Positions 3,481 through 42,955 of a stretch of DNA of 61,137 nt are shown here, piece by piece (within the stretch, counting starts at the first letter, position 1; the number at the start of each line of letters is the position of its first letter). Below the pieces are notes generated by a model. It searched no databases and was not told where the DNA came from. It was given only the letters and a program-made list of their open reading frames with translations. Source of the stretch: a virus; the IMG/VR virus record IMGVR_UViG_3300020732_000001, positions 1 to 61,137 of that record; one strand, given 5' to 3'. The translations under genes were made by a program, and so were the position numbers.

Positions 3481-4917
3481 ATGGCAGAATCGTATTCAAC
3501 CTCATTAAAACTCACCATCATTGGAGCTGGTGATTTAGCTGGCACATGGGGTAATGTAACCAATGCAAATCTTGGTACCCTGCTTGAGCAAGCCATTACT
3601 GGTGTACAGGCTATTAATATTTCAGGATTAACCACTTATACATTAACAAATATTAACGGTGCATTAGATGACGCTAGAAATGCAGTTCTTGTATTTCAAG
3701 GAGGAACTTCAGCTTGTACAATTACTTGCCCAGGTGGTTCAGCCAATAAAGTGTATGCAATAGTAAATCAAGGATCTTATCCAATTACTATGTCTGCATC
3801 TGGCGGATCTACAACATTAGTAATTCCAGGAGGAATGACAGCTCAAGTTTATTTAGATGGAACTAATCAAAGCGGTAGTGGAGTTGGCGTATATTCTCTT
3901 TTAAATGGTGTTCCTGGAGATTTTAAAGTAGTTGGTACATTAACGGCTTCTGGCGAAACGGATACAGGAAATATGTCAGTAGGTGGAACTTTAAGTGTTA
4001 CAGGAACCACAACATTAAGTGGAACATCAACAGCACCTACGCCATCCCCAGGAGACAATTCTACAAAAATAGCAACGACTGCTTTTGTTAATAACATAAC
4101 AGGTTCTTTAGGAACCATGTCTCAGCAAAACGCCAATAGTGTAGCGATTACAGGCGGAAATATTAACAGCACTATTATCGGTAATTCTACAGCTGCGGCA
4201 GGAACATTTACAACACTTGGTGGCACAACGATAACGGCATCAAGTCAATTTTCAGGACCAGGAACTGGACTTACAGGAACAGCGGCAAGTCTTTCCATTG
4301 GTGGAAATGCTGCAACAGCAACATCTGCAACATCTGCTACAACCGCTACAAACGCCACTAATGCAACTAATGTAGTATCAGGTGGAACAATAGCAAACAA
4401 TGTAACAGCAACTACGCAGTCATCAACTGATAATTCAACCAAAATAGCAACAACAGCTTTTGTTCAAGCTGCTATGCAAATACTATATCCTGTAGGTTCT
4501 ATATATACATCTACAGTTAGTACAAACCCTAATACCTTGTTTGGTTTTGGAACATGGGTAGCATTTGGTGCTGGTAGGGTAATGATTGGACAAGATGGTA
4601 GTTCATTTATTGCTGGTGCTACAGGTGGTAGTGCTGATGCTATTATTGTTTCACACACCCATACATTTTCTGGAACTACAAATACAGGAAATGCAAATAT
4701 ATCACAAAATGCAGGTGTATATGGTAATAACGGAACTGTTTATGGACCATTTAGTTCATATGCAGGATACGGTAGTATTGCTCCTGCACAGGCAACAATT
4801 TCAGATAGCGGTCATACACATACTTTTAGTGGAACAACTGCATCACAAGGGTCTAGTGGAACAAATGCAAACTTACAGCCATATATTGTAGTTTATATGT
4901 GGAACAGGACAGCGTAA
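3481..4917 (+). CDS. Tail fibre with baseplate/collar-type tip
   Basis: The 478-residue protein has a Thr/Ala/Ser-rich beta-repeat body. Its tip has the pattern YPVGSIYTS...NPNTLFGFGTW...GRVMIGQD...GGSADAIIVSHTHTFSG, ends at QPYIVVYMWNRTA, and carries two HTHTFSG metal-binding-type motifs. This tip is shared with T4 gp10/gp12-like and collar-domain fibres, where His-x-His motifs coordinate metal in the needle. The ATG at 3481 follows an AAGGAA site. It probably acts as a second receptor-binding fibre. Confidence 0.85.
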   Translation: MAESYSTSLKLTIIGAGDLAGTWGNVTNANLGTLLEQAITGVQAINISGLTTYTLTNINGALDDARNAVLVFQGGTSACTITCPGGSANKVYAIVNQGSYPITMSASGGSTTLVIPGGMTAQVYLDGTNQSGSGVGVYSLLNGVPGDFKVVGTLTASGETDTGNMSVGGTLSVTGTTTLSGTSTAPTPSPGDNSTKIATTAFVNNITGSLGTMSQQNANSVAITGGNINSTIIGNSTAAAGTFTTLGGTTITASSQFSGPGTGLTGTAASLSIGGNAATATSATSATTATNATNATNVVSGGTIANNVTATTQSSTDNSTKIATTAFVQAAMQILYPVGSIYTSTVSTNPNTLFGFGTWVAFGAGRVMIGQDGSSFIAGATGGSADAIIVSHTHTFSGTTNTGNANISQNAGVYGNNGTVYGPFSSYAGYGSIAPAQATISDSGHTHTFSGTTASQGSSGTNANLQPYIVVYMWNRTA

Positions 4918-14181: not shown

Positions 14182-17100
14182 ATGCCATCAGTAAGCATTC
14201 CTTATGTTGGGGTAGTAAATTTCCCTGACGATATGTCTCATGAAGACATTTCAAATGCAATTCAAAATCATATTCTTCCAAATGCACCACATCCTGCCGC
14301 TACTCAGCCTGGCTCAACTAGCCTAGCAGATACATTACAACAATCTATATTTGCTCCTGTGCAAGCATTATTTCCAAGTGTGGGAACTGAGCCAAGCACA
14401 ATGGTAGGATCACTTGCAAAGGGTGTTCAATCATTAAAAGATATTGGAGCACAGGCAAAGTTAAGTGATTTAATTCCATTACAAGAATTAGATAAAGAAA
14501 ATTATGGCCCAAATTTTGAAAGAGCACCAACGACTGGACCTCAATCAAGAGAAAATTTGTTGGCTACCAGAGAAAAAGTTAATCAATATTTAGGTCAATT
14601 AGAACAATCTAAAGCTAATGCTCAAGCGATTGATGCAAAGTATGGCGTTGATCCTTTATCTAAAAAGATTACTGCATTAGAGCAGACTAAAGATTTTAAA
14701 GATGCCAGCACATGGGAACAAACTAAAAAGATTGGTTCAGAGCTATTAAGTAATTTTACGGATATACCAGAATATATTGCTAACGTAGGTTTAAGTAGTT
14801 TGCCACAATCTATTGCTATGGCTGTAGCATCTAAAGTAGGTGCATCAGCAGGAATAACTGGTGCAATGGTAGCTGGTGGTGCTTCATCTGCGTTCATGGA
14901 ATATGGTAATGAGTATGTTGATTTAAGAGAACAAGGATTTACTCACGAACAAGCTAATGACAAAGCTGCCGTTAAATCAGGAATTATTGGATTGCTTGAT
15001 GCTGTTTCTTTAAATTCAGCTGGTAAAGTTGCTGAAAAAATATTTGGTGGCACAAGACAGGCATTAAAAGAAACTGCCAAAGACATTGGCAAGGAAATAC
15101 CTAAACAAGCTGCTTTAGGTGCGGCTGGAGAAGGCTTTGGTTCTTATTTAAGTAATCAACCAGTTAATCCTAGAGCAGTAATGGAAGAAGCTCTTGGTGA
15201 GGTATTTGGTGCTCCTGGTGAGGCAATGTCTACTTATCAAGGTAAAAGAGCACAGCAAATTCAAAATCAAGAAGCTCCAGTTGTTAAGCCAGAGCCAAAA
15301 GGCACGGTTACTATTGGGCCTTCAACTCCTCCAGTTCCTTTAATTACTGAGGCAGATTTAGAAGAAGAACCATCAGGTCGACCACCAGTTCTACCAACTT
15401 TGCCTCATACTCTTGAAGAAATTATGGATAAAGGCGAGCCTGTTGAAACAAAACAGGAAGCTGAAAAAGCTCACAGCGATGGTGATACCGTTTATGGATT
15501 TCATGAGCAAGATGAAGAACATCCTGTATTAATTAAAGACATTGACCAGTTAAAAGGATATACACCTGATCAACTGATGGTTGTTCCTAAAGAAGAAAAA
15601 CCAAAAGAACAAAGAAAAAAAGAATCTCCAATAGCATCATCTACTACATATAACGTAAAAACCGAAGATGCTGGCACATTTTTAACTCAAGTCTTTAGAA
15701 ATAAAGATGGCTCTATTGATATAATGGATGAAGATGGACAGGTTATAAAAAATAATAAAGAATTTGCAAAAGGAAAATCTGATGCTGAATTATTGGCTTA
15801 CCATTTTGAACCATTAGGATATGAATCTCATGAAGTTGTTCCTAAAGAAGAAACGCCAGCTGAAGTTAAAAAAGAAGAAGAACAAAAAGAAGAAGAATCT
15901 ACCAGTAACATTGTTACAGGTGTAGGGGTAAACCCTGAGACAATCAATAAAGTTATTGATGCTCGTAGTGCTGGAAAAGCAAAAGATTATATTAAAAAAC
16001 ATGGTCAAGAATTTTTTGATCAAGCCTTAAAAGATGGTTTGATTAGAACTTTTACCGTTGGTAAAAATACATTTGTTACTACTACAGATGAGGGTGATGA
16101 TCTTTACTATACAAATACTAAAACAGATGATGGTAAGTATTCTTTAAAAGAAGTGCAAGATGCTGTGGATAGCGTTAAAGGTGAATGGGAACAATTTGCT
16201 GATGCTGACAAGTTTATTAAAAAATATCCAGACATGCTTACCTCGGCATGGAAAAGTGGATTTTTAAGAACAAGTGCATCTGGAACCAATCTTTTTGCTG
16301 TTTACAATGAAGAAGATCTTGAAAGAGCAAAACAGAATCAAGCGGATGAAGAAAATCCAATTGAAATGTTTAAACAAAATATAGCCGAAAGAGCGGCAGA
16401 AGAAAAGGCTAGAGAAGAAGAAAAAGCAAAAGCACCAAAGACAAAGGCTGAACTTAACAGAGAACGTCAACAGGCTAAGAAAGAGGCTGCTGAAAAGAAG
16501 AAGCAAGAAGAAGAGGTTAAGAAAAAACAGCTAGATGAAGAAGCTGAAATGAAAATGCCTGAAGAAATTGAGGCGGAAGAGCTTAAAGATAAAATAGCAC
16601 CAAATGAAACAAAAAAAATTAATGCAACAAATTATATTTCTAAGTCTACTAATGCAGAAAAACTTAATGGCTGGTCAAAAATAGATACATATAGTTCAAT
16701 TATTTTGGTTGGACAGGAAGATCCTAATGTTAAAGAATTTACTCAGCATACTTGGACATTTAATCCAAAGTCTGGAACTGATGCTATGCGAGCACAAAAT
16801 CTTGTGCAAGTATGGACACAAGAAAATCCTTTAAAAAAAGAAGAGCCTAAAGGCAAAATTAAAATAGAGCCTGTTGTTAAAAAAACACAGGCAGAAATTA
16901 ATAAAGAACGACAAGAGGCTAAAAAAAATGCCACTAAAAAACCACAAGATTTTACAAATGATGAATTAGATTTAGCGGCAAAGATTGTTTATAACGGTAA
17001 TGGTATTGAATATGAAAAATCAGTACTACCAATCCTTAAAAAATTACAGGATGCAGGGTTAATAAAATTACAAGGAACAAAAGTATTTTTAACTCAAGAA

Positions 17101-20100
17101 TCCAAAGATGCTGGTATTCCAGAGGGCAGTTCTTTTAGTCAATTTTCTGATTCAGAAGACGTTAAAAACTTGCGTAATTTTTTAACTAAAGGACCCAAAA
17201 AAGAAGAAGTCAAAGTAGAAAAAAAGCCAGCTGAAGAACATATTGAGCCAAACAAAGTTGAGCCAGTTACTCCAAAGACTATAGAAAAGTCTATTGAAAA
17301 AGCTCAATCTAGAGTAGATTACAAAAAAATCAAACAGGCAATTTCTAATCAATTTGATCAGGCCATCAAAAGGGCTACGATTCAAACTGAAAAAGAATGG
17401 GATGCATCAACTAAAGAACGAGATAGTTTTGTAAAGATTGACATTCCTGGTGATGGTAAGTTCAAGGTGGCAAACAATGTAGAACGTCTTGAAGATCTTA
17501 AGAAAAAACTTATTAACGCTGCCGCTCCAAAGACTGGTGGCATTCCAAGAGCACCAAGTGCTGCAAGTGTATCGTCTGCTGAGACTGCATTTAAGAACTT
17601 TGTTGAAGAGCAAGATTTTGAGAATGCAATTAAATACGCTGAACTCAAAGGCTTGGATATGAAAGAAGTCAAGTTGACTCCAGATCAGCGGAAACAGTTA
17701 GACAATTACATCAAAAATCCAAAGGCATTTGAAGAAGAGAAAGCTGAAGTTGAAAAACAATCAGAAGATTATGTAGAAGCTCAAAAAGAAAATGCTGTTG
17801 AAAAATTAAATCTTAAAGAAGAAAAACCAAAGGCTGGTCAAGTATTCCCAGCACCAGCAGTTAATAAAAAATTGTTTGAGGGCACAGATAAGCCCATTAC
17901 AAAAAAACCAAATTGGATGGATGAAGGAGTATGGAATCAATATGAACGATTCCAGGCTGGTAATTTCTCTATGCCAACTGCATCATTTCAAGGTGCTGAA
18001 CGGATTAAAAAAGGAAATGAGTTTAAAAAAGAAGCAGAGAAAAATTACAAAGAAGCGGCTAGGATATTCCTTAGATTTGCATCAACGGCTAAATTCCCAA
18101 CGGCTCGTGCTGATAAATTGATATTGGAAAAAGGTTCTTACATCCCAGCCAGACCAATTGAAAAGAAAATTATTGGGGCATTTACTGAGCCAAATATTAA
18201 GAAGGCTGTATATGCATTGGTAGATCCAAAAGAAGTTAGAGAGGCTTTGCGTGGTGCTGTATTAGAACCAGATAAAACAGTCTCGACTGATGGCAAACGA
18301 TTATTGATTGTTAATACCAAGAACGATGTTACTAAACCAACGATTGTTGATAAAGATGGCAAAGTAATTGAGGCTCAGATTGCTCCCTACGAGAAGGTAT
18401 TAGAAAAGTATAAAGACTTAAAACCAAGTCATGGCGTTAATGCTGAAGCGTTGGGGGACTATGCTCGTGGAGTTATCAAAGGACACAAGTATGCTGGTAA
18501 TACTTTTTATCCAATTACTTTGGTTGTGGGTAAAGAGAATTACACATTTAATGCAGAGTTTATTGAAGACCTAACAAACGCTTTTAGACAGTTGGGATAT
18601 CCAGAGTTCAATATAGGAATTCAAGATAAGATGTTGAAAGCGGTATCGCCAGATGGAAAAGTAACACAGTTACTCATGGGTATGACAGAGCGTGATACCA
18701 ACTTCATGCCATTTAATATTAATAACGGATATCCAAGTTTTACGAGCGATGAAAAATTGGGTGAAGAGTATTTTATTGAAGGTGAAGCTACGGATATCTC
18801 TAACCGTAAGTTGCTTGCTGGCCCTGTAGATGAGTTATCTGAACAAGAACAAGTCAAGTTAGAAGAGCATTACGGTGCAAAACGCAACACCAGAGAGTTT
18901 TTTACTCAATTAAAAGATGATGTTATTCGTGCTACAAACGAAGGTATTGGCATTATTGATAGTGCAATTCGAGATATCATTGCCAAGATTCAAGCTGGGG
19001 TTTTAGCCGTAGCAATTATCTTTAATCCTGCCTACATGAGTGAAGGCAACTATTTCATGATGCCTACCAAAGAAAGGTCGGTCAGGATTGAACAGGTCAG
19101 AGCTGAAGTTCCTGCCGAAGCAGAAGGTATGTCAGAGGCTGGTAAACATGCTTACTCGATGATTGCACCTGCACAAAGTGGCACTAAGTACTTTACGATT
19201 GTTGACAAACCTACTGCAACAGCGTATGTCTTTAACCCAGATGGTAGTTTAAAGATCTCAAGAAAAGTATTGTTAGGTAAAGCGTTTGGCGATTCTTATG
19301 TTGGTCAAGTTCAATTTGAACAAAATAGACAGACTCCAGCAGGAATGTTTACCATTAATGCTGAAAAAGGTAATCTGCGTGACTACGATGGCAAGACTAT
19401 CTACACATTAAGTGGTGATAAAGGTGCGTTCCATGTGGCTGTCATGCATACGGTCTATACTAAAGAGTCAGATGGTAAAGCTAGATTAAATGCATTGACT
19501 ACTCCTGGTGCTGCCGACTCTCGTTATTCGCATGGCTGTATCAACGGCACTCCTGAGTTTATGCAGTCCATCAACGATGAGAAGATGGATCAATCTCATA
19601 TGTTTGTTGTGCCTGATAATCAGGCTAAAGTTGATGATTTCTTGGCAAACAATGTTCCTAAAGATGACTTGGATCGCATGGAAGTCAAGCCAGTTGAAAG
19701 ACAGGTTGTAGAAGAGCGTGAACAGCAAAAAGTGGTTAGTGGTGCACAGCAAGATTTATTAGCGACTAGAGAAGAAGAAATCAAAGCCCCAAAGACGCAA
19801 GCAGAAATTAATCGTGAACGCCAACAGGCTAAAAAAGCAAGCCAAGAAACGCCTGAAGAAGATTATCGTGGAACATTTACAGATAACCTTGATGAACGCA
19901 GATTTTTCAAAGAAGAAAGTTTATCCAATAAACAACATGCTTCTGAACAGGCTCGCAAAGTAAAAACTTCTATTACCAAAATTTTAAGACAAATGGTAAA
20001 GGGTAACTTTGGTATTGATACCCAAAGAGCACTTACAGAACTTTTATCTGAAAGAACCATTACCAATATAGAAAAGAAATATGCTAGGGTAAGAATTGAT

Positions 20101-23100
20101 TCTGCCGATGCATTCTTGGCTAATGCTATTCGTGATGCTGAATTGCATAGAGCTTATCCAAAAGATGAACGTTATGGTCTAAAGCCAGAGGTATTGGCTG
20201 TAATTAAAGAAGTTAATCGTAGATTTCCAAATGTTTTAGATGGCTTAAGGTTAAGCATTAAGAAACCCAATGAACGTGGATCAACAGGTAACTTTGCACC
20301 ATTATCAAGAATAGTGACGTTATATAAAGACACATCAGGCACATCAGAGCCTAAAACATTTAGACATGAAATTATGCACTCACTTGAGCAGATGATGCCA
20401 GATGATGTGTACATGAAAGTTATTAATAACTGGGCTAAGTCTTTAGCGAAAGCAATTGAAAACTATACAGATAAAAAACATCAAAAATATTTTGATGCTG
20501 TTTTAGATTATGTCAATAATCCAAATGAGCAAACATATCAAAAAGCAAAAGATGCTTTGCCTAATTACAACATGTATCAATACATTAATCCTTCTGAGTT
20601 CTGGGCGGTTAATGCTGAGAAACTGTTTGGGCAGAAGCTAGGCGGTCGTTGGGAAAACTTTAAACGAGCCGTACAAAAACTATTTGAAGGATTAAAGAGT
20701 GTCTTTGGTTTTGATAATCGTTATGGTGTGCATGTGGCGTTTGATCGTTTATTCAAGGGAGATCTTGAGCGTGGCGAGAGTAGACGTATGCTGGTGGATT
20801 ATCTGTATCGTAACAATATAACCAAAGAAACCATATTAGAGAATGTAGATTCAGATGAAATTAATGAATTGTCTGAGAAGCATGGCATCAATGAGCCACC
20901 AGAAAAATTATCGCCATCTGTTGTAGATTGGATTACAGGTGGTAAACAATATGTAAAAAATCTAAAAAATAATTTAAAAGAATCACCAAGAGGCGTAGCT
21001 GTTCAGATGACTGGTAATCTGGATAATGCATTGCTTGGCTTTAGAATCAAAACAACTGACTTTACGGCAGGTCTTGCAGCTGCCGATGCTGAAAAGTATG
21101 GTCGTAAGTTAGAAAACGGCATGAACCAAGCGATTGCTGCAGTAGCAAGCAATCAAGCATTAAGAGCAATTCGTATAGCTTCTAGGGTTGTGGCCAGAGG
21201 AAAATTGGTATTTGATCCTCAATGGCAAATGTTTAGAGCTCAAGAAGACAAGCATTCAATGGCAAACATTTTCCGATTAAGAAAAGAATTTGCTAAACGA
21301 GTTGGTAAATCAGAGGCTAAAAAAGCAATTCAGGGTTTCTTTGAGGCATTACGTTCTAAGAGTATTATTCAAGAGTATGTAGATAGACAAGCCGATTTAG
21401 AAAAATACTTAGCAGAACAAGCTGATCCAACAACTAATGCTAAACGCCAAGCTAAATTAATTAAATTAATTAATGAAGCTCAAGATGATTTGAAAAACGT
21501 AAGTATTGCATTAGAAAAAGTTAGATTGAGTGATGATGCTATTTATGACTTAATTAAGATGGGTGAAAAACATCCAGAGTTAGTGGAGATTCGTAAGAAT
21601 TGGAATGCTATTAATCAAAATATGATTAATATGATGGAGTTTGCCAGCATTATTAGTGAAGAACGTGCCAATACTTTGCGTAATATCAAGGACTATGTTC
21701 CTTGGAATCGTATTATGGATGAGCAAAAAGATGCTCGCAATCCTGTTTGGCTATATACCTCTAAAGGCGTACGAAACGTCAATAGAGAACCAATTTTTAG
21801 ACGAGGAGCAACGAACAGGGATATTGATGACATCATTGATAACATGACGCACAACGTCATGATGATTACTCGCAATGTCATTAAAAACTATGCTGCTAAT
21901 CGTATTGCTCAGGAGTATGCGGAGCGTGATGAAAATGGCAAAATTAAAACTTACCCAGCTGAAGATTTTAGTAAAGGTATTGTTAAAATTTTAGTCAACG
22001 GACAAAAAGTTAATGTCAAGATTCTTGATATGTATGTGGCTCAATCCGTTATTGGTGCTGAGAATGTTCAAATTCCACTTAATGGTATTATGTCGTTCTT
22101 TGCAAACCTTGCAAGAAGAGCGATTACTTTAAGCCCTAAATTCCAAGTTAAACAAGCATTCCAAGATGCGTTTACTGCGGCTATGGTTACTGGTGTTAAA
22201 AACCCTGCTGCTTTGTTAGGGAATGTCTTTGTATCGTTTGCCAAAGGGTTAAATCCCAACGATGAAGTCATTAATACATTAAAAGATTTTGGTGTGGGCG
22301 GTTTTTCTGGCATATCTAGAACACAACAAGGGCGTTACTCTCAAGAAGTTGGCATGTTAAATGATAATCGTCTTTCTCAATTAACTGGACTACTTGACCA
22401 TATTGCTGATGCTTCTGACTATTCACAGCGTATGGCCGCTTACAATCGAGTAATGGCTGAGACTAATGGTGATGTGCGAGCTGCGATTCTTGCTGCGACC
22501 AATGTGATTGACTTTGAAAAACATGGTGCTGGCATAACAATGCAATTTTTAAATCGTACCATTATGTTTATGAATGCTTATGCCCAACAGATCGATGTAT
22601 TAACTCAAGCGTTAATGCTCAATCCTAACGGTGGTCTGCGTGGCATTGATCGTCAGCAAGCTTTAATTCGATTAGGAACAGCTGTAGCAATGATGGCTGG
22701 TATGACATTGCTTTATACATCTTGGGCTGGTGATGACGATGAGTATCAAAAGACAGATGACCGTACTCGTATGCGTAACATTATTCTTCCTAAAGGCAAA
22801 ACTGGCTTTGATCAAACTTATTACATTCCAATTAATACTTCAGCCTCATTCCTGGTCAAAGGCATGATTGAGATGTTACATAACAAATATATTAATGAAT
22901 CATTTAAAGATAAGATTGATGGCACAAGATTTCGTTCAGCCATGTTAAAAGGATTTGTTGATTCTATGTTAGGACCTTTGACTTCTGGACCAGTACCAAC
23001 AGCGTTCAGAGCACCTACTGAAATTATATTGAACCATAACTTTTATACTGGTGGTAAGGTAACTCCAGACAGTATGAAGAACTTAGCAGCATTTCGACAA

Positions 23101-23658
23101 TTCAATGCCAATACATCTGAACTGGGTAAATACATTAGCAGAGCTACTCAGAATCCATTAGATCCAGAACAAAGAATGTTAAACCCAATGGAAGCAGATC
23201 ATGTCATGCGTGGCTTAGGAGGTTCTGTATCAGCTGTTGCCATGTATTTATCTAATATGTTATCTGGCAATCATCCTACGCAAGATGACCGTAAGAATCC
23301 ATTGTATGGAGACTTTATTGCACCTGAGATTCCAAAAGGTAACGAAGAGTTATTCTATGACCTTAAATCTAGGGCTGAAGTAGCTCATGACACAATGACA
23401 GATATGTATCGAAATCAGCATACAGAAGAGGCTCAGAACTGGCAAAAAGCTCATGAAGGATTAATTAAAGCTTATGGATTTACAGAAAGTGCTGGTAAGT
23501 CTTTAGCAGCATTAAATAAAGAAATTCAAAGAACGGCTGACCTTCCAGAGGCTCAGATGACTAAAGAACAGAAAAAAGCCAGAATGATTGAACTGCAAAA
23601 AACAAAACAGATTATTCTTGATAAGACAATCGAGTTTAGAAAGTTAGCTGGACTGTAA
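14182..23658 (+). CDS. Giant multidomain ejection protein with L,D-transpeptidase-like and zincin motifs
   Basis: At 3158 residues this is the largest gene. Residues ~200-300 are Ala/Gly-rich and possibly membrane-active. Residues ~380-1250 are low-complexity Lys/Glu coiled coils with repeated AELNRERQQAKK-type helices. At about 1700-1830 a YkuD-like domain ends in RYSHGCING with the catalytic-type Cys at 1786. A zincin motif HEIMH lies at 2062-2066. The C-terminal third resembles the large polyvalent 'LPD38' associated region and includes hydrophobic helices. Proteins of this type are stored in the head and ejected; the two motifs suggest peptidoglycan remodelling and proteolysis at entry. 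Its 3' end overlaps the opposing resolvase gene by 23 bp. Confidence 0.85.
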   Translation: MPSVSIPYVGVVNFPDDMSHEDISNAIQNHILPNAPHPAATQPGSTSLADTLQQSIFAPVQALFPSVGTEPSTMVGSLAKGVQSLKDIGAQAKLSDLIPLQELDKENYGPNFERAPTTGPQSRENLLATREKVNQYLGQLEQSKANAQAIDAKYGVDPLSKKITALEQTKDFKDASTWEQTKKIGSELLSNFTDIPEYIANVGLSSLPQSIAMAVASKVGASAGITGAMVAGGASSAFMEYGNEYVDLREQGFTHEQANDKAAVKSGIIGLLDAVSLNSAGKVAEKIFGGTRQALKETAKDIGKEIPKQAALGAAGEGFGSYLSNQPVNPRAVMEEALGEVFGAPGEAMSTYQGKRAQQIQNQEAPVVKPEPKGTVTIGPSTPPVPLITEADLEEEPSGRPPVLPTLPHTLEEIMDKGEPVETKQEAEKAHSDGDTVYGFHEQDEEHPVLIKDIDQLKGYTPDQLMVVPKEEKPKEQRKKESPIASSTTYNVKTEDAGTFLTQVFRNKDGSIDIMDEDGQVIKNNKEFAKGKSDAELLAYHFEPLGYESHEVVPKEETPAEVKKEEEQKEEESTSNIVTGVGVNPETINKVIDARSAGKAKDYIKKHGQEFFDQALKDGLIRTFTVGKNTFVTTTDEGDDLYYTNTKTDDGKYSLKEVQDAVDSVKGEWEQFADADKFIKKYPDMLTSAWKSGFLRTSASGTNLFAVYNEEDLERAKQNQADEENPIEMFKQNIAERAAEEKAREEEKAKAPKTKAELNRERQQAKKEAAEKKKQEEEVKKKQLDEEAEMKMPEEIEAEELKDKIAPNETKKINATNYISKSTNAEKLNGWSKIDTYSSIILVGQEDPNVKEFTQHTWTFNPKSGTDAMRAQNLVQVWTQENPLKKEEPKGKIKIEPVVKKTQAEINKERQEAKKNATKKPQDFTNDELDLAAKIVYNGNGIEYEKSVLPILKKLQDAGLIKLQGTKVFLTQESKDAGIPEGSSFSQFSDSEDVKNLRNFLTKGPKKEEVKVEKKPAEEHIEPNKVEPVTPKTIEKSIEKAQSRVDYKKIKQAISNQFDQAIKRATIQTEKEWDASTKERDSFVKIDIPGDGKFKVANNVERLEDLKKKLINAAAPKTGGIPRAPSAASVSSAETAFKNFVEEQDFENAIKYAELKGLDMKEVKLTPDQRKQLDNYIKNPKAFEEEKAEVEKQSEDYVEAQKENAVEKLNLKEEKPKAGQVFPAPAVNKKLFEGTDKPITKKPNWMDEGVWNQYERFQAGNFSMPTASFQGAERIKKGNEFKKEAEKNYKEAARIFLRFASTAKFPTARADKLILEKGSYIPARPIEKKIIGAFTEPNIKKAVYALVDPKEVREALRGAVLEPDKTVSTDGKRLLIVNTKNDVTKPTIVDKDGKVIEAQIAPYEKVLEKYKDLKPSHGVNAEALGDYARGVIKGHKYAGNTFYPITLVVGKENYTFNAEFIEDLTNAFRQLGYPEFNIGIQDKMLKAVSPDGKVTQLLMGMTERDTNFMPFNINNGYPSFTSDEKLGEEYFIEGEATDISNRKLLAGPVDELSEQEQVKLEEHYGAKRNTREFFTQLKDDVIRATNEGIGIIDSAIRDIIAKIQAGVLAVAIIFNPAYMSEGNYFMMPTKERSVRIEQVRAEVPAEAEGMSEAGKHAYSMIAPAQSGTKYFTIVDKPTATAYVFNPDGSLKISRKVLLGKAFGDSYVGQVQFEQNRQTPAGMFTINAEKGNLRDYDGKTIYTLSGDKGAFHVAVMHTVYTKESDGKARLNALTTPGAADSRYSHGCINGTPEFMQSINDEKMDQSHMFVVPDNQAKVDDFLANNVPKDDLDRMEVKPVERQVVEEREQQKVVSGAQQDLLATREEEIKAPKTQAEINRERQQAKKASQETPEEDYRGTFTDNLDERRFFKEESLSNKQHASEQARKVKTSITKILRQMVKGNFGIDTQRALTELLSERTITNIEKKYARVRIDSADAFLANAIRDAELHRAYPKDERYGLKPEVLAVIKEVNRRFPNVLDGLRLSIKKPNERGSTGNFAPLSRIVTLYKDTSGTSEPKTFRHEIMHSLEQMMPDDVYMKVINNWAKSLAKAIENYTDKKHQKYFDAVLDYVNNPNEQTYQKAKDALPNYNMYQYINPSEFWAVNAEKLFGQKLGGRWENFKRAVQKLFEGLKSVFGFDNRYGVHVAFDRLFKGDLERGESRRMLVDYLYRNNITKETILENVDSDEINELSEKHGINEPPEKLSPSVVDWITGGKQYVKNLKNNLKESPRGVAVQMTGNLDNALLGFRIKTTDFTAGLAAADAEKYGRKLENGMNQAIAAVASNQALRAIRIASRVVARGKLVFDPQWQMFRAQEDKHSMANIFRLRKEFAKRVGKSEAKKAIQGFFEALRSKSIIQEYVDRQADLEKYLAEQADPTTNAKRQAKLIKLINEAQDDLKNVSIALEKVRLSDDAIYDLIKMGEKHPELVEIRKNWNAINQNMINMMEFASIISEERANTLRNIKDYVPWNRIMDEQKDARNPVWLYTSKGVRNVNREPIFRRGATNRDIDDIIDNMTHNVMMITRNVIKNYAANRIAQEYAERDENGKIKTYPAEDFSKGIVKILVNGQKVNVKILDMYVAQSVIGAENVQIPLNGIMSFFANLARRAITLSPKFQVKQAFQDAFTAAMVTGVKNPAALLGNVFVSFAKGLNPNDEVINTLKDFGVGGFSGISRTQQGRYSQEVGMLNDNRLSQLTGLLDHIADASDYSQRMAAYNRVMAETNGDVRAAILAATNVIDFEKHGAGITMQFLNRTIMFMNAYAQQIDVLTQALMLNPNGGLRGIDRQQALIRLGTAVAMMAGMTLLYTSWAGDDDEYQKTDDRTRMRNIILPKGKTGFDQTYYIPINTSASFLVKGMIEMLHNKYINESFKDKIDGTRFRSAMLKGFVDSMLGPLTSGPVPTAFRAPTEIILNHNFYTGGKVTPDSMKNLAAFRQFNANTSELGKYISRATQNPLDPEQRMLNPMEADHVMRGLGGSVSAVAMYLSNMLSGNHPTQDDRKNPLYGDFIAPEIPKGNEELFYDLKSRAEVAHDTMTDMYRNQHTEEAQNWQKAHEGLIKAYGFTESAGKSLAALNKEIQRTADLPEAQMTKEQKKARMIELQKTKQIILDKTIEFRKLAGL

Positions 23659-33356: not shown

Positions 33357-33386
33357 GCTTGCAAAATATTTTAAAATGGTTTAATC

Positions 33387-33407
33387 TATAATCTCAACTG
33401 CTAGGAG
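33387..33407 (+). promoter_or_regulatory. -10 element and AACTGCTAGGAG leader copy
   Basis: TATAAT at 33387-33392 is followed by AACTGCTAGGAG at 33396-33407. A TTGCAA lies 22 bp upstream of the TATAAT, too far for a normal -35. Transcription would begin at or within the motif. The first ATG (33419) opens only a 15-codon frame ending at 33466. Confidence 0.55.
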
Positions 33408-33511
33408 TGCGTCACGGAATGAATCAACTCCGTGATAACAATTTGTGTATTTTGTATATACGTTAATTTAACGTGTATAGATTTATGCCATTTTGTTTAC
33501 GCACTCCTAGC
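33400..33511 (+). ncRNA. 112-nt three-way inverted-repeat element
   Basis: GCTAGGAGTGCGT (33400-33412) and ACGCACTCCTAGC (33499-33511) form a perfect 13-bp outer stem that would bury AGGAG. Inside are a CACGGA/TCCGTG hairpin (33413-33418 with 33429-33434) and an ACGTTAA/TTAACGT hairpin (33460-33466 with 33468-33474). It may be a folded RNA, a replication origin cruciform or an operator pair. The symmetry itself is directly visible. Confidence 0.5.
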
Positions 33512-33870
33512 ACGATGATTTAGGTCTATCGGTCTGAGTATGTGTGAAAGTTGCCCTTGAAGTTGAGTAGAACGGCAAAAAGACATACGTTTACGTTCTT
33601 CCTAAATTAGCGTGATAGTGAGCAAAGAAGATTGTTTAGGCTCAAGGTGTGGAAGCGTGGTCTTTACTCTGTCTGAGAACGATTGAGAACAATAGAGATC
33701 ATTCGGTGACACTTAAACGAACTCGTAGTACAGAGTAGAAAGCACCGATGTGTGAACTAGACTACCAATGGTTCATTAACTTGATATGAAGTAAGCGACC
33801 GAAAGGATATCGAGTTGAGTTTTCCTTCAATCCCATGCTGTGGGGTTGGGGGAAACCTCACTTTCAATTT
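33512..33870 (+). ncRNA. Candidate large structured RNA
   Basis: No convincing reading frame. Nested and serial pairings occur: GTATGT/ACATAC (33538/33583) enclosing TTGCC/GGCAA (33551/33574); CCTAAA/TTTAGG (33601/33635); and GGT-CTTT-ACTCTG with CAGAGT-ag-AAAG-c-ACC (33659-33671 with 33731-33746). A GAAA-capped CGACC/GG-ata-TCG hairpin follows (33796-33812). Last is a terminator-like GTGGGGTT/AACCTCAC hairpin (33840-33861) before a T-rich stretch. Base composition is less AT-rich than nearby genes. No known RNA family recognised. Confidence 0.42.
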
Positions 33871-33894
33871 CGTTTCGCTCCCTCAAGGATATAT

Positions 33895-38860: not shown

Positions 38861-38932
38861 CTCCTAGCAGTTAAACGATTGCAAAATGGCAATCCCAATG
38901 CCCAATTAAGGGCATCAGGATTACAGCACTTA
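38861..38932 (-). promoter_or_regulatory. Structured intra-operon leader, copy 1
   Basis: Read on the minus strand: the upstream stop codon in TAAGTGC, hairpin ATGCCC/GGGCAT (38898-38903 with 38910-38915), hairpin GATTGC/GCAATC (38877-38882 with 38889-38894), then AACTGCTAGGAG (38861-38872). The same order with the same shared blocks occurs at 40886-40963. Neither hairpin has a T-run, so these are not simple terminators. Confidence 0.7.
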
Positions 38933-39118
38933 CCAATGCACTTGACTGTCTAAATCTTTGACATCTACATAGTCCTCTGCCCTTCTAAAAGAACCTATGT
39001 AAAAAGGATAACTATCTACTGTTCCCATATCACTATTCTTTAAACATTGAACAACATCAAGTAATGCAGTTTCTAATGATTCAATATCAGCAAAATACAT
39101 TTTGATTTCGAGTTTCAT
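38930..39118 (-). CDS. Hypothetical protein (62 aa)
   Basis: ATGA overlap with the previous gene. MKLEIKMYFADIESLETALL ... FRRAEDYVDVKDLDSQVHW; a strand-helix-strand fold is likely. Its TAA stop forms the first bases of the structured leader. Confidence 0.72.
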   Translation of the reverse strand: MKLEIKMYFADIESLETALLDVVQCLKNSDMGTVDSYPFYIGSFRRAEDYVDVKDLDSQVHW

Positions 39119-39810
39119 AAATCCTCCAATTCTGCATACTCTCGTTTAGATTCTTCCAACTCTTTTAACAATCTGGCTTTGTCTTTTTCTTCTGCCGTTT
39201 CGAGCTCTTTTTCAATCGCCTCAATTTCAGTTAAAAGATCATCCATTTTGTATTCTTTGATACTGTCGGAGATTCCGTATTGATCATCAATGTTTTTAGG
39301 TATGTTATTACGCACCCATTGAACATCATTTTGAATGTCATAACATTCTTCTAAATCGTTTTCCCAATAGCCACAGAACCCCATACCACCTTCATAATAG
39401 GTGGCTGAGACATCATAGCCTTGCTCAACAAGTTTTTGATAAATGCCACAGGGAGGACTCCAAGCCGTAGAACAATAAAAAGAAATGGTGTTTTCATTCG
39501 CCTCAAGATCGTAAGGTTTATTTTCGTAAACTGTTTCAATCTCCCATTTCGTGCCCCAATGCTGAACCCTCCAGTCCCACCAATTATCAGGCTTGATGGT
39601 CGGCTGATAGGCTAGAGCCTTTTCCTCTTCGGTCTTAGCATACTTCGCTACGATCTCTGGGTAGGTCTTTTTAACAGGAGTAACTGAGTAGTCTGGCTCT
39701 GGGTATATCGTGCCAAAGAACTTCCCTTCATTCCAAGCAGTTACTAATTTCTGAATCTTCTCTGGGTTATCGTGTGAGATAACTACATTGTTTTCGCACC
39801 AATTAGGCAT
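39115..39810 (-). CDS. Api92-like / DUF1281 ferredoxin-like-fold protein
   Basis: 231 residues. MPNWCENNVVISHDNPEKIQK, then WWDWRVQHWGTKWEIE and SFYCSTAWSPPCGIYQKLVE, with GMGFCGYWEN. This is the Api92/YubB-like family carried by phages and plasmids, with a ferredoxin-like fold and no settled function. The C-terminal ~40 residues are an added charged coiled coil. Confidence 0.85.
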   Translation of the reverse strand: MPNWCENNVVISHDNPEKIQKLVTAWNEGKFFGTIYPEPDYSVTPVKKTYPEIVAKYAKTEEEKALAYQPTIKPDNWWDWRVQHWGTKWEIETVYENKPYDLEANENTISFYCSTAWSPPCGIYQKLVEQGYDVSATYYEGGMGFCGYWENDLEECYDIQNDVQWVRNNIPKNIDDQYGISDSIKEYKMDDLLTEIEAIEKELETAEEKDKARLLKELEESKREYAELEDL

Positions 39811-39985
39811 ATCTTTTTACCTCCTCTATTTCAGTTATTTGAAAATCATGTCCATCTGTTACATCACCATAATCGAAGTCGATTTCTCCGTCATAAATCA
39901 TTTTTTTGATTTGATCGACAGATTCACCTTCCACTTCTTTCATGTAATAAACTACCTCACTTGCGAAAGCATAAAATTTAGGCAT
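39803..39985 (-). CDS. Hypothetical protein (60 aa)
   Basis: ATG 39985 (MPKFYAFASEVVYYMKEVEG) is preferred over an upstream TTG. The acidic IDFDYGDVTDGHDFQITEIE segment resembles small DpnD/PcfM-like phage proteins. Overlaps both neighbours. Confidence 0.72.
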   Translation of the reverse strand: MPKFYAFASEVVYYMKEVEGESVDQIKKMIYDGEIDFDYGDVTDGHDFQITEIEEVKRYA

Positions 39986-40142
39986 TTGCAATTTCCTTCC
40001 ATAATTCGTATGTTTGTTTTAATTTTGAATTGTCCATTTTCCAAAGTTTTTTTAAATATTCTTCAACGTCATTTAACTGTTCGATTGGATAAATTGATTT
40101 CATCATCCAAAATATTTCAAATTGATATTCATAATTACTCAT
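39978..40142 (-). CDS. Hypothetical helical protein (54 aa)
   Basis: ATG 40142 lies two bases before the upstream gene's stop ends. MSNYEYQFEIFWMMKSIYPI ... KQTYELWKEIANA. Fully helical. It completes an otherwise unexplained gap in the operon. Confidence 0.68.
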   Translation of the reverse strand: MSNYEYQFEIFWMMKSIYPIEQLNDVEEYLKKLWKMDNSKLKQTYELWKEIANA

Positions 40143-40344
40143 TTTGATATTCCTCAAAAAGTTTTGTTAAATGAATTTCAAGATAATGTAATTTACTAAT
40201 CTGTTCATCACAAAAATCTTGCATATCGTTAAATTCATTAAATCCATCTAATTTCATTCCTCTTAAATAAGTGTGTTTATCTAAGTTAATTAAATCAAAA
40301 TAGATTTCATTTACAGTTTCTAATAAAAGATTTTCAATCGACAT
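40135..40344 (-). CDS. Hypothetical helical protein (69 aa)
   Basis: ATG 40344 (MSIENLLLETVNEIYFDLIN) lies 7 bp after AGGAG; another ATG 6 bp upstream is too close to that site. Similar in length and helical style to the following gene. Not recognised. Confidence 0.7.
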   Translation of the reverse strand: MSIENLLLETVNEIYFDLINLDKHTYLRGMKLDGFNEFNDMQDFCDEQISKLHYLEIHLTKLFEEYQNE

Positions 40345-40621
40345 TTTCATACTCCTCTTCGTAATAAGCACAACTATAAAAAACAGGTTCAAAATCAATC
40401 GACAAAACTTTAGTTTCGTCATCTAAAAAATCGCCAATTTTAAGATCGGCAAATTCATCTTTCGTCATTGTCATATAAAGGCGATTGTCAATCCAAGAGT
40501 CCCAAAGAACTTCGTCAGGAACTCCCTTCTCTAAAATTCCGATCTGGACAGTTGTCGGATTGTTCCAATCGTCAGGTCGAATAAGCACATCATAGGCAGT
40601 TACCGTATAAACTCTTTTCAT
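40334..40621 (-). CDS. Hypothetical protein (95 aa)
   Basis: MKRVYTVTAYDVLIRPDDWN ... DSWIDNRLYMTMTKDEFADL ... ACAYYEEEYENVD. Mixed alpha/beta and acidic. ATGA overlap with the gene before. Function unknown. Confidence 0.72.
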   Translation of the reverse strand: MKRVYTVTAYDVLIRPDDWNNPTTVQIGILEKGVPDEVLWDSWIDNRLYMTMTKDEFADLKIGDFLDDETKVLSIDFEPVFYSCAYYEEEYENVD

Positions 40622-40788
40622 AGATCACCTGTAAGAACTTTAATTAGTTTAGGCTCGGTCTTGGTCTGGATACGCTTGAGGTTATTCCACCCCAAATAGT
40701 AATCAATCCATTCGCAAGCCTCCAAGAACGAGGGCAGAACATGGGAGGCGATCACCTCCCTTCGTTGGTTATAGATAATCGCTTGCAT
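40618..40788 (-). CDS. Hypothetical protein (56 aa)
   Basis: Starts in a TAATG overlap at 40788 and ends in an ATGA overlap. MQAIIYNQRREVIASHVLPS then EACEWIDYYLGWNNLKRIQ; basic, possibly a small DNA- or RNA-binding protein. Not recognised. Confidence 0.72.
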   Translation of the reverse strand: MQAIIYNQRREVIASHVLPSFLEACEWIDYYLGWNNLKRIQTKTEPKLIKVLTGDL

Positions 40789-40877
40789 TAAAACCCCCCA
40801 GTCCTAAGAACCCAAATAAGGGCAAGCCCTGAACCCATCAAAGCACCAAATAAACACGCATAAAAAATATCTTTCAT
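40788..40877 (-). CDS. Very small membrane protein (29 aa)
   Basis: MKDIFYACLFGALMGSGLAL then IWVLRTGGF: one transmembrane helix with a glycine zipper. It sits directly behind AACTGCTAGGAG and the structured leader, so despite its size it occupies a first-gene position in a translated unit. Confidence 0.68.
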   Translation of the reverse strand: MKDIFYACLFGALMGSGLALIWVLRTGGF

Positions 40878-40885
40878 TTTTTAAA

Positions 40886-40963
40886 CTCCTAGCAGTTAAA
40901 GTTAATGATTGCCGAAAATGACAATCCCTAAACCCTCTAGAGAGGGCTTAGAGGTGGCACTTA
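40886..40963 (-). promoter_or_regulatory. Structured intra-operon leader, copy 2
   Basis: Minus strand: TAAGTGC at the upstream stop, hairpin CCCTC/GAGGG with flanking CTAA/TTAG (40928-40937 with 40942-40951), GATTG/CAATC hairpin (40907-40911 with 40922-40926), then AACTGCTAGGAG (40886-40897). It matches the copy at 38861-38932 in block order and in the GGGATTG-y-CATTTT and CAATC blocks, while hairpin 1 differs in sequence but keeps its pairing. Confidence 0.72.
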
Positions 40964-41368
40964 GTGGCTCTCTTCTGTCTCTGGTGCTTGAGTAAACAAT
41001 TCAGGGAAAGCCGTAAAAAGTTTATAAGCGTTTGTTTGATCTGCTCTAGTGAAAGCCTGAGCAAGATAGAAAGCAAACGAGCCTTGATTCTGCATAATGT
41101 TGCATGACTCGAAGGCTTGAGCCTTTTGGATAGCGTTTAATTTCATAAGGTGATTCCTTTGTGAGTGAAAAAAATTGTCTGCTGAACTTTTGGAGAGAGA
41201 ATATAAAATTTGCTCTGGTGTAGGATCGTTGAGAGCCCACCACTCAAGACAGTTATATTTAGTGTTAAATCTGGCGATATCGTAAAGCGTAACATCAGCA
41301 TGAGGGGATTTAAAGGCGATTACTTGACCTTCAAATAGTGGTGTTGCTGTAAAGTTCGTTCCTCTCAT
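40961..41368 (-). CDS. Hypothetical protein (135 aa)
   Basis: ATGA overlap with the first gene of the operon. MRGTNFTATPLFEGQVIAFK ... NPTPEQILYSLSKSSADNFF; contains FYLAQAFTRADQTNAYKLF near the end. No recognised family. Confidence 0.72.
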   Translation of the reverse strand: MRGTNFTATPLFEGQVIAFKSPHADVTLYDIARFNTKYNCLEWWALNDPTPEQILYSLSKSSADNFFHSQRNHLMKLNAIQKAQAFESCNIMQNQGSFAFYLAQAFTRADQTNAYKLFTAFPELFTQAPETEESH

Positions 41369-41808: not shown

Positions 41809-41820
41809 CTCCTAGCAGTT
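41809..41820 (-). promoter_or_regulatory. AACTGCTAGGAG leader of the minus-strand operon
   Basis: A full 12-base motif followed by TTTAAAAAC and the ATG at 41799. The leader sequence CTGCTAGGAGTTTAAAAA is also present at the 40886 copy. There is no structured hairpin block here, unlike the two downstream intra-operon copies. Confidence 0.78.
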
Positions 41821-41876: not shown

Positions 41877-41975
41877 TGTCAAGCGTTTTGATGTAAAAAA
41901 ACAAATTATTTTTGATCTGGGAAGTTAAGCCCAGGTGATAACTTTTGACCTGGTGAGTGAGGAGGTCGCAGATCG

Positions 41976-42005
41976 TTGCAATAAATAAAGAGAATGCCCT
42001 ATACT
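41976..42005 (+). promoter_or_regulatory. Sigma70-type promoter of the terminase operon
   Basis: TTGCAA (41976-41981), 18-bp spacer, TATACT (42000-42005); predicted start near 42012. It has the same 18-bp spacer and TATACT as the promoter at 33192. CTGGG/CCCAG and CCAGGT/ACCTGG inverted repeats lie at about 41917-41956 just upstream. Confidence 0.7.
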
Positions 42006-42034
42006 TGGGGTGTGAACATTCCGAGAATATACCT

Positions 42035-42955
42035 ATGAGAAAACTTACAAAAAAAGAAATTGCCGAAGGCATACAGGCTATGCCAATCGAAAGAATACTA
42101 ATGGGTGCTAATAGTCCTAAAGGAATCAAACTCACCAAGAGACAAAAGGAATTTGCAGAGCAAGTAGTAAAGACTGGTAATAAGACGGAGGCATACAGAA
42201 GGGCTTACACATCCAATGGGAAGAACACCACAGCATCACGCAATGCAAACACAGTTGCAAAAAATAGCAAAGTGCAGACATACATCACAGCCCTTGAAAC
42301 GGCTAAAGAAGTGGAGGAATATCTTCTACCCACTCAGTTGAGGACAATGGCAATTCAGAAACTCTCCTCAATGGCTCTCAATGACGAGTTACCACCAGCC
42401 CAGCAGTTGAAGGCTCTTGAGTTGGTCGGCAAGATGTCGGAGGTCTCTTTGTTCTCGCAGAGAGTCGAGCACATTCATTCAGTAGATAGCCAAACACTCA
42501 AGGCTCAGTTACTTACAGCCATCACAACGGCCATAACTAATAGCAAGAGCCTACAATCTAGAGTTAAAAGAACGGCTGAAAGTCTTTTGGCAGAGTTAAA
42601 CGGCTCTGATCTGGTAGAAATCGAAGGGGCAGGGACTGAAATTCTGACTCCAGAGCCTCCCACCACCCCCCACCACCCCAAAATTGAATTAGCATTGGCT
42701 GAGCCTTTGCATAGTATTCCCCACAATGAATCACCAACTATTGACAGTCAAGAAATAGTAACCAATAACGATACTAGGGTAAACCCTGACATGTCTAACA
42801 ATGTTACACATCTAGGGGAAAACCCTAATATGTCGAACAATGTTATACATGTAGGTATAAACCCTAATGGGGAGTGGGTAACAAAAATGGAGTGGGTTGA
42901 GAGTAACAATGTTATAGAAACACCCCCCATCACAAATTGGATTGAAAAAGGGTAG
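42035..42955 (+). CDS. terS: Small terminase subunit (TerS-like)
   Basis: ATG 42035 gives 306 residues; the longer frame from 41957 crosses the promoter. The N-terminal helix-turn-helix block (TKRQKEFAEQVVKTGNKTEA-type, with AYRRAYTS) and the following helical region match Terminase_2-like small subunits, which bind the packaging site. The C-terminal third is low complexity, with a 13-residue repeat (NPDMSNNVTHLGE, NPNMSNNVIHVGI). The large terminase lies shortly downstream. Confidence 0.8.
   Translation: MRKLTKKEIAEGIQAMPIERILMGANSPKGIKLTKRQKEFAEQVVKTGNKTEAYRRAYTSNGKNTTASRNANTVAKNSKVQTYITALETAKEVEEYLLPTQLRTMAIQKLSSMALNDELPPAQQLKALELVGKMSEVSLFSQRVEHIHSVDSQTLKAQLLTAITTAITNSKSLQSRVKRTAESLLAELNGSDLVEIEGAGTEILTPEPPTTPHHPKIELALAEPLHSIPHNESPTIDSQEIVTNNDTRVNPDMSNNVTHLGENPNMSNNVIHVGINPNGEWVTKMEWVESNNVIETPPITNWIEKG
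42776..42914 (+). repeat. 39-bp tandem repeats with TAACAATGTTA palindromes (candidate pac site)
   Basis: Units starting AACCCT at 42782, 42821 and 42860 repeat every 39 bp. Each of the first two holds an AACAATGTTA half-palindrome (42796-42806, 42835-42845), with a third at 42904-42914. The location inside the small-terminase gene is where P22-type phages place their packaging site. Confidence 0.5.

Follow-up and report, generated by a model that had tools for sequence, protein, structure and literature searches.

An RNA element with two conserved, mutually exclusive folds is exchanged with type I hammerhead motifs between the genes of phage operons

The DNA analysed (the window) is a virus record of 61,137 bases from IMG/VR, with genes for phage terminase, portal, primase and tail. 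Small genes form a minus-strand operon from about 41.8 kb to 37.8 kb, and two of its gaps hold the leaders that a preliminary description of the sequence had placed at 38861-38932 and 40886-40963, where both were found. Each leader runs from the upstream stop codon (TAAGTG...) through two hairpins to a final (T)TTAACTGCTAGGAG ahead of the next start codon. None of ten small genes had a Pfam match, and tblastn with a frequent downstream gene gave no matches. Elsewhere in the window, an ORF of 3158 codons occupies 14182-23658, and a 39-nt unit is present at 42777-42854 in two head-to-tail copies, 85% identical, inside the plus-strand ORF 41957-42955. The features of the two leaders, copy 1 and copy 2, are listed below.

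40886-40963, minus strand: copy 1 of the element (subtype B), starting with the upstream stop codon and ending with the SD; matched by covariance model R1, member of a family of 63
40961-40963, minus strand: TAA stop codon that closes the upstream ORF 40961-41368; it overlaps the 5' helix strand
40955-40961, minus strand: alpha7 strand AGTGCCA, pairing with beta7 at 6 of 7 positions in copy 1
40942-40951, minus strand: hairpin 1, 5' arm CTAAGCCCTC
40928-40937, minus strand: hairpin 1, 3' arm GAGGGTTTAG
40920-40926, minus strand: hairpin 2 (S2), 5' arm GATTGTC
40917-40923, minus strand: beta7 strand TGTCATT, which shares bases with the 5' arm of hairpin 2
40907-40913, minus strand: hairpin 2 (S2), 3' arm GGCAATC
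40886-40897, minus strand: ribosome-binding leader AACTGCTAGGAG of copy 1; homology to hammerhead-bearing relatives starts exactly here
40788-40877, minus strand: 29-aa ORF directly 3' of copy 1; its ortholog in loci L130, L132 and L136 is preceded by a hammerhead
38861-38932, minus strand: copy 2 of the element (subtype A), starting with the upstream stop codon and ending with the SD; matched by R1
38930-38932, minus strand: TAA stop codon of the upstream ORF 38930-39118
38927-38930, minus strand: alpha strand AGTG, pairing with CATT at 38885-38888
38910-38924, minus strand: long hairpin, 5' arm GTAATCCTGATGCCC, the GTAATC of which resembles the hairpin 2 3' arm
38889-38903, minus strand: long hairpin, 3' arm GGGCATTGGGATTGC
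38889-38894, minus strand: hairpin 2 (S2), 5' arm GATTGC, the same bases as at the base of the long hairpin
38877-38882, minus strand: hairpin 2 (S2), 3' arm GCAATC
38861-38872, minus strand: ribosome-binding leader AACTGCTAGGAG of copy 2
41809-41820, minus strand: SD leader, exact match to AACTGCTAGGAG, without hairpins, before the first gene of the operon

The reported likeness of the two leaders is confirmed by blastn, which recovers copy 1 with copy 2 as the query (E=1.5e-4, 79% over 36 nt), and exact matches to GGGATTGYCATTTT in the window are confined to the two leader sites. The tail that they were said to share is present in both and is not specific to the pair: AACTGCTAGGAG has five exact sites in the window (33396+, 34643+, 38861-, 40886- and 41809-) and, with up to two mismatches, 13 matches against 3.9 expected. 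The hairpins are absent at the three other exact sites (33396+, 34643+ and 41809-). As AACTGCTAGGAG is repeated three more times without them, it is regarded as a shared ribosome-binding leader lying outside the structured element. The pairing proposed for the first hairpin of copy 1 is real, its extent being corrected to the ten pairs of CTAAGCCCTC and GAGGGTTTAG. In copy 2, the strands of this first hairpin extend to one 15-pair hairpin, GTAATCCTGATGCCC/GGGCATTGGGATTGC, which the energy model favours over the two-hairpin fold. TAAGTG at the stop is a shared string, as described, and is at the same time one strand of a helix. The lack of a T-run after the hairpins was also correctly reported, hairpin 2 being followed by ATTAAC or GTTTAAC and then by the SD.

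Two further observations concern the surroundings of such leaders. At 33396-33520 of the window, a promoter-like TATAAT is followed by AACTGCTAGGAGTGCGT and, 96 nt further, by ACGCACTCCTAGCA, which together make an inverted repeat of 14 pairs. The 3' arm of the repeat is the complement of the SD leader that the mRNAs of this phage have in common, no ORF of 80 aa is present until 33835, and the repeat is also found in L045; it is possibly a small RNA that pairs with these leaders. In L018, a phage with a subtype D element, the Rfam Betaproteobacteria-1 RNA (RF02932, 95.4 bits) is matched at 4733-4853, about 100 nt after an TGCTAGGAG leader, a hint that the phage hosts may be Betaproteobacteria; RF02932 has no match at 33380-33880 of the window.

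An exact scan of IMG/VR for TTTAACTGCTAGGAG returned 52 stretches; when these were read by eye, 18 of the 52 held the element, four a subtype D form and four a hammerhead. Further copies were collected with two structure-based patterns scanned on IMG/VR. Once L072, L088, L095, L103, L104 and L105 had been removed as chance matches, 37 candidate sequences remained, 34 of which were aligned (A1) to build covariance model R1, with the omission of L056 (chance) and of L058 and L091 (near-duplicates). Searched with this model at E≤0.008, 45 sources yielded 75 matches. The 45 sources of the second alignment (A2) are the window and 44 loci; L132 was left out since an antisense match would have entered, and its sense copy has AGTG/CACT, which is favourable to alpha:beta pairing. 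In the window, R1 detects two copies only, at 40886-40975 (69.8 bits, the copy 1 sequence being within the training set) and at 38861-38944 (81.6 bits, an identical sequence being within the training set). Many of these genomes have 2-4 copies, and the copies precede many different genes. At E≤0.01, R1 had no match in 14 of 15 other loci, and the sole match, in L119, is the subtype D copy known from L016. The subtype D copies of L170-L172 were assessed by eye. Two of them (L172:73-148 and 595-670) precede a different SD of the GGGGC type, which shows that the element can occur without the AACTGCTAGGAG leader. Two further stretches from a genome scan were rejected as unsupported by the covariance model, and when cultured phages were searched with the DNA of copy 2, no match covered more than 21% of the query.

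In the 63 distinct rows of A2, standard pairs occupy 98.3% of the 1182 cells of hairpin 1, hairpin 2 and the alpha:beta tetramer. Shuffles average 85.5% paired, none of 500 reaching the observed values, and slid partners are paired in 31.6-49.1%. Compensatory changes on both sides occur at 15 of 19 pairs. Hairpin 2 is 100% paired, with compensatory changes at five of its six pairs, and the outer alpha:beta pairs are formed in 94.6% of 239 cells, with double changes in three of four pairs. In the four copies tested, the folds are stable, with z values between -2.4 and -4.2. The preliminary description had seen in this preserved pairing the mark of a functional RNA and had made the idea depend on further covarying relatives in phages; both points are borne out by the 63 distinct examples from metagenomic phages.

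The element has two conserved folds that are mutually exclusive, and the strand that they share covaries with both partners. One fold is a long imperfect hairpin made of the alpha strand, hairpin 1 and the beta strand, the 5' strand overlapping the upstream stop codon; the other consists of two small hairpins. Bases of the hairpin 2 5' arm have an alternative partner, the strand at the stop codon. Copy 2 belongs to subtype A, where GATTGC as a whole pairs with either GTAATC upstream or G(C/T)AATC downstream. In subtypes B and C (copy 1 is of subtype B), three bases of the hairpin 2 5' arm join a 7-pair alpha:beta helix, and in subtype D, judged by eye, the overlap between the 7-pair helix and hairpin 2 extends to both sides, so that only one of the two can form at a time. 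Over 33 B/C rows, the inner three alpha:beta pairs are formed in 90 of 99 cells against 85.6 after shuffling, a value reached in one of 2000 shuffles when relatedness is ignored, and the outer four in 122 of 132 cells, with a G-A mismatch in the outer helix of six B/C rows. These B/C figures are lowered by the rows of L066:7172 and L016, which the model misaligned at alpha. Double changes at the inner pairs are from AT to GC (L052, L030) and from TA to CG (copy 1, L079, L075). Column 61 of A2 is C in L030 and column 63 is C in L052, both partners being G in each case; an A in column 62 is matched by T in the alpha strand in 16 of 17 rows, and a G there by T or C in 14 of 16. Within subtype A, a change from AT to GC in the long hairpin is present in L007 only. 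Mean energies of the long hairpin and of the two hairpins, computed for nested folds, are -26.2 and -21.8 kcal/mol in subtype A, -24.4 and -23.8 in B/C, and -28.0 and -23.7 in D. The long hairpin has the lower energy in 19 of 19 A rows, 20 of 34 B/C rows and 4 of 4 D rows; the 14 B/C rows in which it is not favoured include copy 1. An invariant AGTG/CATT pseudoknot was rejected: the early patterns forced CATT and gave an apparent invariance, and the copies found by the model vary with compensating pairs that extend into hairpin 2.

Of the distinct copies, 57 have an upstream ORF of at least 35 codons, and in 55 of these its stop codon begins between -4 and +7 nt relative to the start of alpha; a further three distinct copies lack an ORF of that length. 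The end of the longest ORF lies elsewhere in the two exceptions, one of which, L098, has in addition a shorter ORF that ends at -2. The element provides the stop in different reading frames (TRAGTGA). On its other side, 13-23 nt separate S2 from the end of GGAG. The SD is free in both folds, and simple SD masking was rejected.

The hammerhead core consists of CUGANGA and GAAA with three stems. A type I hammerhead pattern found 42 distinct sequences in related loci (106 redundant matches), with GGAG within 31 nt downstream in 106 of 106 and none in reversed sequence or in three doublet shuffles. In the same operons, type I hammerheads fill equivalent gaps before the same AACTGCTAGGAG leader, and they overlap stop codons much as the element does. 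A hammerhead is also present in 62 of 91 element-bearing loci, hammerheads not having been a search criterion; none was detected in the window with a relaxed-stem pattern. In several hammerheads (L025, L046, L052, L065, L079) stem III is long and holds two facing copies of TGAGTCCGCAAAT or a close variant, which resemble a symmetric internal-loop motif.

The exchange of modules was examined with 122 distinct combinations of module and gene (76 element, 46 hammerhead), the neighbouring genes being clustered. Both modules occur in 9 of 17 multi-member clusters of downstream genes and in 7 of 20 clusters of upstream genes. At four junctions, different modules share both the upstream and the downstream cluster. 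Three of these are clean on protein reading (L007/L091 vs L075; L030 vs L066; L059/L065 vs L058/L062); the fourth, L059 vs L008/L009/L022, is weak as its upstream reading frame is distrusted. The swapped module has the pattern of CUGANGA, stem II, GAAA, stem III, UH cleavage site and stem I, and the swapped hammerheads tested score below Rfam gathering (L059, 30.8 bits vs 34 for RF00163; L016, 24.7 vs 56.3 for RF03152). Against the operon of the window, blastn alignments of L130, L132 and L136 start at 40897, the first base of AACTGCTAGGAG. In these three loci a type I hammerhead, its end meeting the first base of the SD leader, sits where the window has copy 1, and the upstream genes differ; copy 2 is conserved in L130, before a different gene.

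No model among the 4227 of Rfam 15 is matched by the element at gathering score, permissive scans giving sub-threshold matches only, and membership of a known Rfam family was rejected. The osmY RNA (RF03036, 18.8 bits vs gathering 46.9) and the freshwater-2 RNA (RF02980, 15.0 vs 49.9) likewise have hairpins upstream of a single-stranded leader and an ATG. The RNase III signals of T7 are found between genes and have two stems with an internal loop. As described in the accessible part of PMC4858673, R1.1 RNA receives a single RNase III cut, and signals of this type share with the element an imperfect long mRNA hairpin that fits a single cleavage on the 3' side; in the element, however, which is a putative substrate of RNase III, the 3' strand has a second conserved partner. 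The leader of T4 gene 32, in the part of PMC3014915 available, has a pseudoknot upstream of the SD in a phage mRNA, as the element may have, whereas the element precedes many unrelated genes, starts at the stop codon and has an overlapping alternative fold. The type I hammerheads between phage genes (RF00163, RF03152), in the accessible text of PMC3088659, flank single phage genes, may cut long transcripts to gene-length mRNAs and are active in vitro and in E. coli. The element lies in the same gaps, abuts AACTGCTAGGAG in the same way, likewise overlaps the stop with its 5' strand and is exchanged with them at orthologous junctions, but lacks the CUGANGA/GAAA core. A hammerhead variant was rejected in view of the absent core, the absence of a relaxed-stem match in the window and the absence of an Rfam gathering match. 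No description of the element was found in the literature searched, the coverage of which excludes most subscription journals. If the element is phage mRNA punctuation, that kind is known and the element would be new within it. Its overlapping alternative fold and its connection with hammerheads are additions to the preliminary description.

That description had proposed processing, attenuation or control of re-initiation; processing now appears favoured because hammerheads replace the element at orthologous junctions, and for the same reason the element most likely also leads to a cut. It is tentatively considered, with a confidence just short of evenly balanced, to be operon punctuation that would lead to the cutting of polycistronic phage mRNA as a hammerhead does, by way of an RNase III-type cut and refolding. 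The stop codon, which lies inside the element, would end the upstream gene there and free the RNA to fold. Nascent RNA would adopt the long imperfect hairpin first, since transcription has yet to reach the 3' arm of hairpin 2; this fold is supported by covariation, and the energies and the alpha:beta covariation indicate that a long double-stranded stem, as expected of an RNase III signal, is able to form. A host endonuclease specific for double strands, most likely RNase III as with T7 mRNA, would then cut the 3' side near the conserved GG that precedes GATTG. Deprived of the alpha strand, the downstream product would refold into hairpin 2, itself a supported fold, and the new mRNA would carry a stem-loop at or near its 5' end, followed by the unstructured AACTGCTAGGAG leader and the start codon. 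It is presumed that hairpin 2 shields the 5'-monophosphate end from RNase E. A hammerhead cleavage product bears a 5'-hydroxyl and would need no shield, which would account for the hairpin here and for none behind the hammerheads. RNA with a 5'-monophosphate is preferred by RNase E, according to the part of PMC3997798 available. Cutting followed by refolding would also explain the strand common to both folds.

Several points weigh against this processing scheme. That the element takes the place of hammerheads is evidence for a common location rather than for a common mechanism. Sequence conservation of the degree seen here, for example in the GG before S2, is unusual for RNase III sites. The long hairpin is not favoured by energy in 14 of 34 B/C rows, and alpha:beta mismatches occur in B/C rows. 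A doubtful but possible alternative is a new class of self-cleaving ribozyme, used interchangeably with hammerheads to cut operons into single-gene mRNAs. It would be a compact pseudoknot of four outer alpha:beta pairs and six S2 pairs, with hairpin 1 in loop 1, cutting perhaps just 3' of hairpin 2, before TTAACTGCTAGGAG, and possibly working by exchange between the two overlapping helices. Interchange with hammerheads at orthologous junctions and covariation of the outer alpha:beta pairs speak for it, and new classes have been sought near known ones (PMC10085705, accessible part). Such a ribozyme would be categorically new. However, no invariant unpaired core is obvious: the linker and internal loop differ among A, B/C and D, and the unpaired stretches common to the subtypes are short, such as the GG before S2. 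In addition, the S2 loop of subtype D is too small for the pseudoknot, and the overlap of helices is better explained by sequential folds. The route through a host RNase is preferred over self-cutting because the would-be catalytic loops and linkers differ between subtypes.

Beside these two routes to a cut, a ribosome-governed switch deserves consideration as a third possibility, although it is improbable. A ribosome at the stop would cover alpha and allow hairpin 2, the long hairpin would form when the upstream gene is not translated, and initiation at the next gene would be set accordingly. The overlap of the stop with alpha in nearly all copies and in more than one reading frame is consistent with such a switch, as are folds that exclude each other and are close in energy. 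However, the SD is uncovered in both folds, beyond the 13-23 nt spacer, and L100-L102 have another SD. Hammerheads overlap stops likewise, so the overlap need not be regulatory. Stable folds directly before the SD could instead form a barrier that is not cleaved, stabilising the 3' end of the upstream mRNA, insulating the initiation site or binding a phage protein, for which the T4 gene 32 pseudoknot is a precedent (PMC3014915, in the part available). This is quite unlikely: it leaves the hammerhead exchange and the conserved overlap of two helices unexplained, and the downstream genes are diverse, unlike in the autoregulation of one gene. That the similarity is due to chance or to an intrinsic terminator is very improbable. 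GC-rich hairpins do lie between genes, but no T-run follows them, covariation is strong in 63 distinct copies, and coding resumes directly downstream. An intrinsic terminator was rejected on the missing T-run; the preliminary description had also disfavoured termination, and a ribosome-binding site follows the hairpins.

The repeated exchange of the element and hammerheads at orthologous junctions amounts to a natural experiment in functional equivalence. It suggests that the purpose of these hammerheads is the punctuation of mRNA ahead of a standard leader, a question left open in the accessible part of PMC3088659. The element itself is a small candidate for a new ribozyme or for a two-state processing element, in which the cut would trigger refolding into a protective cap.
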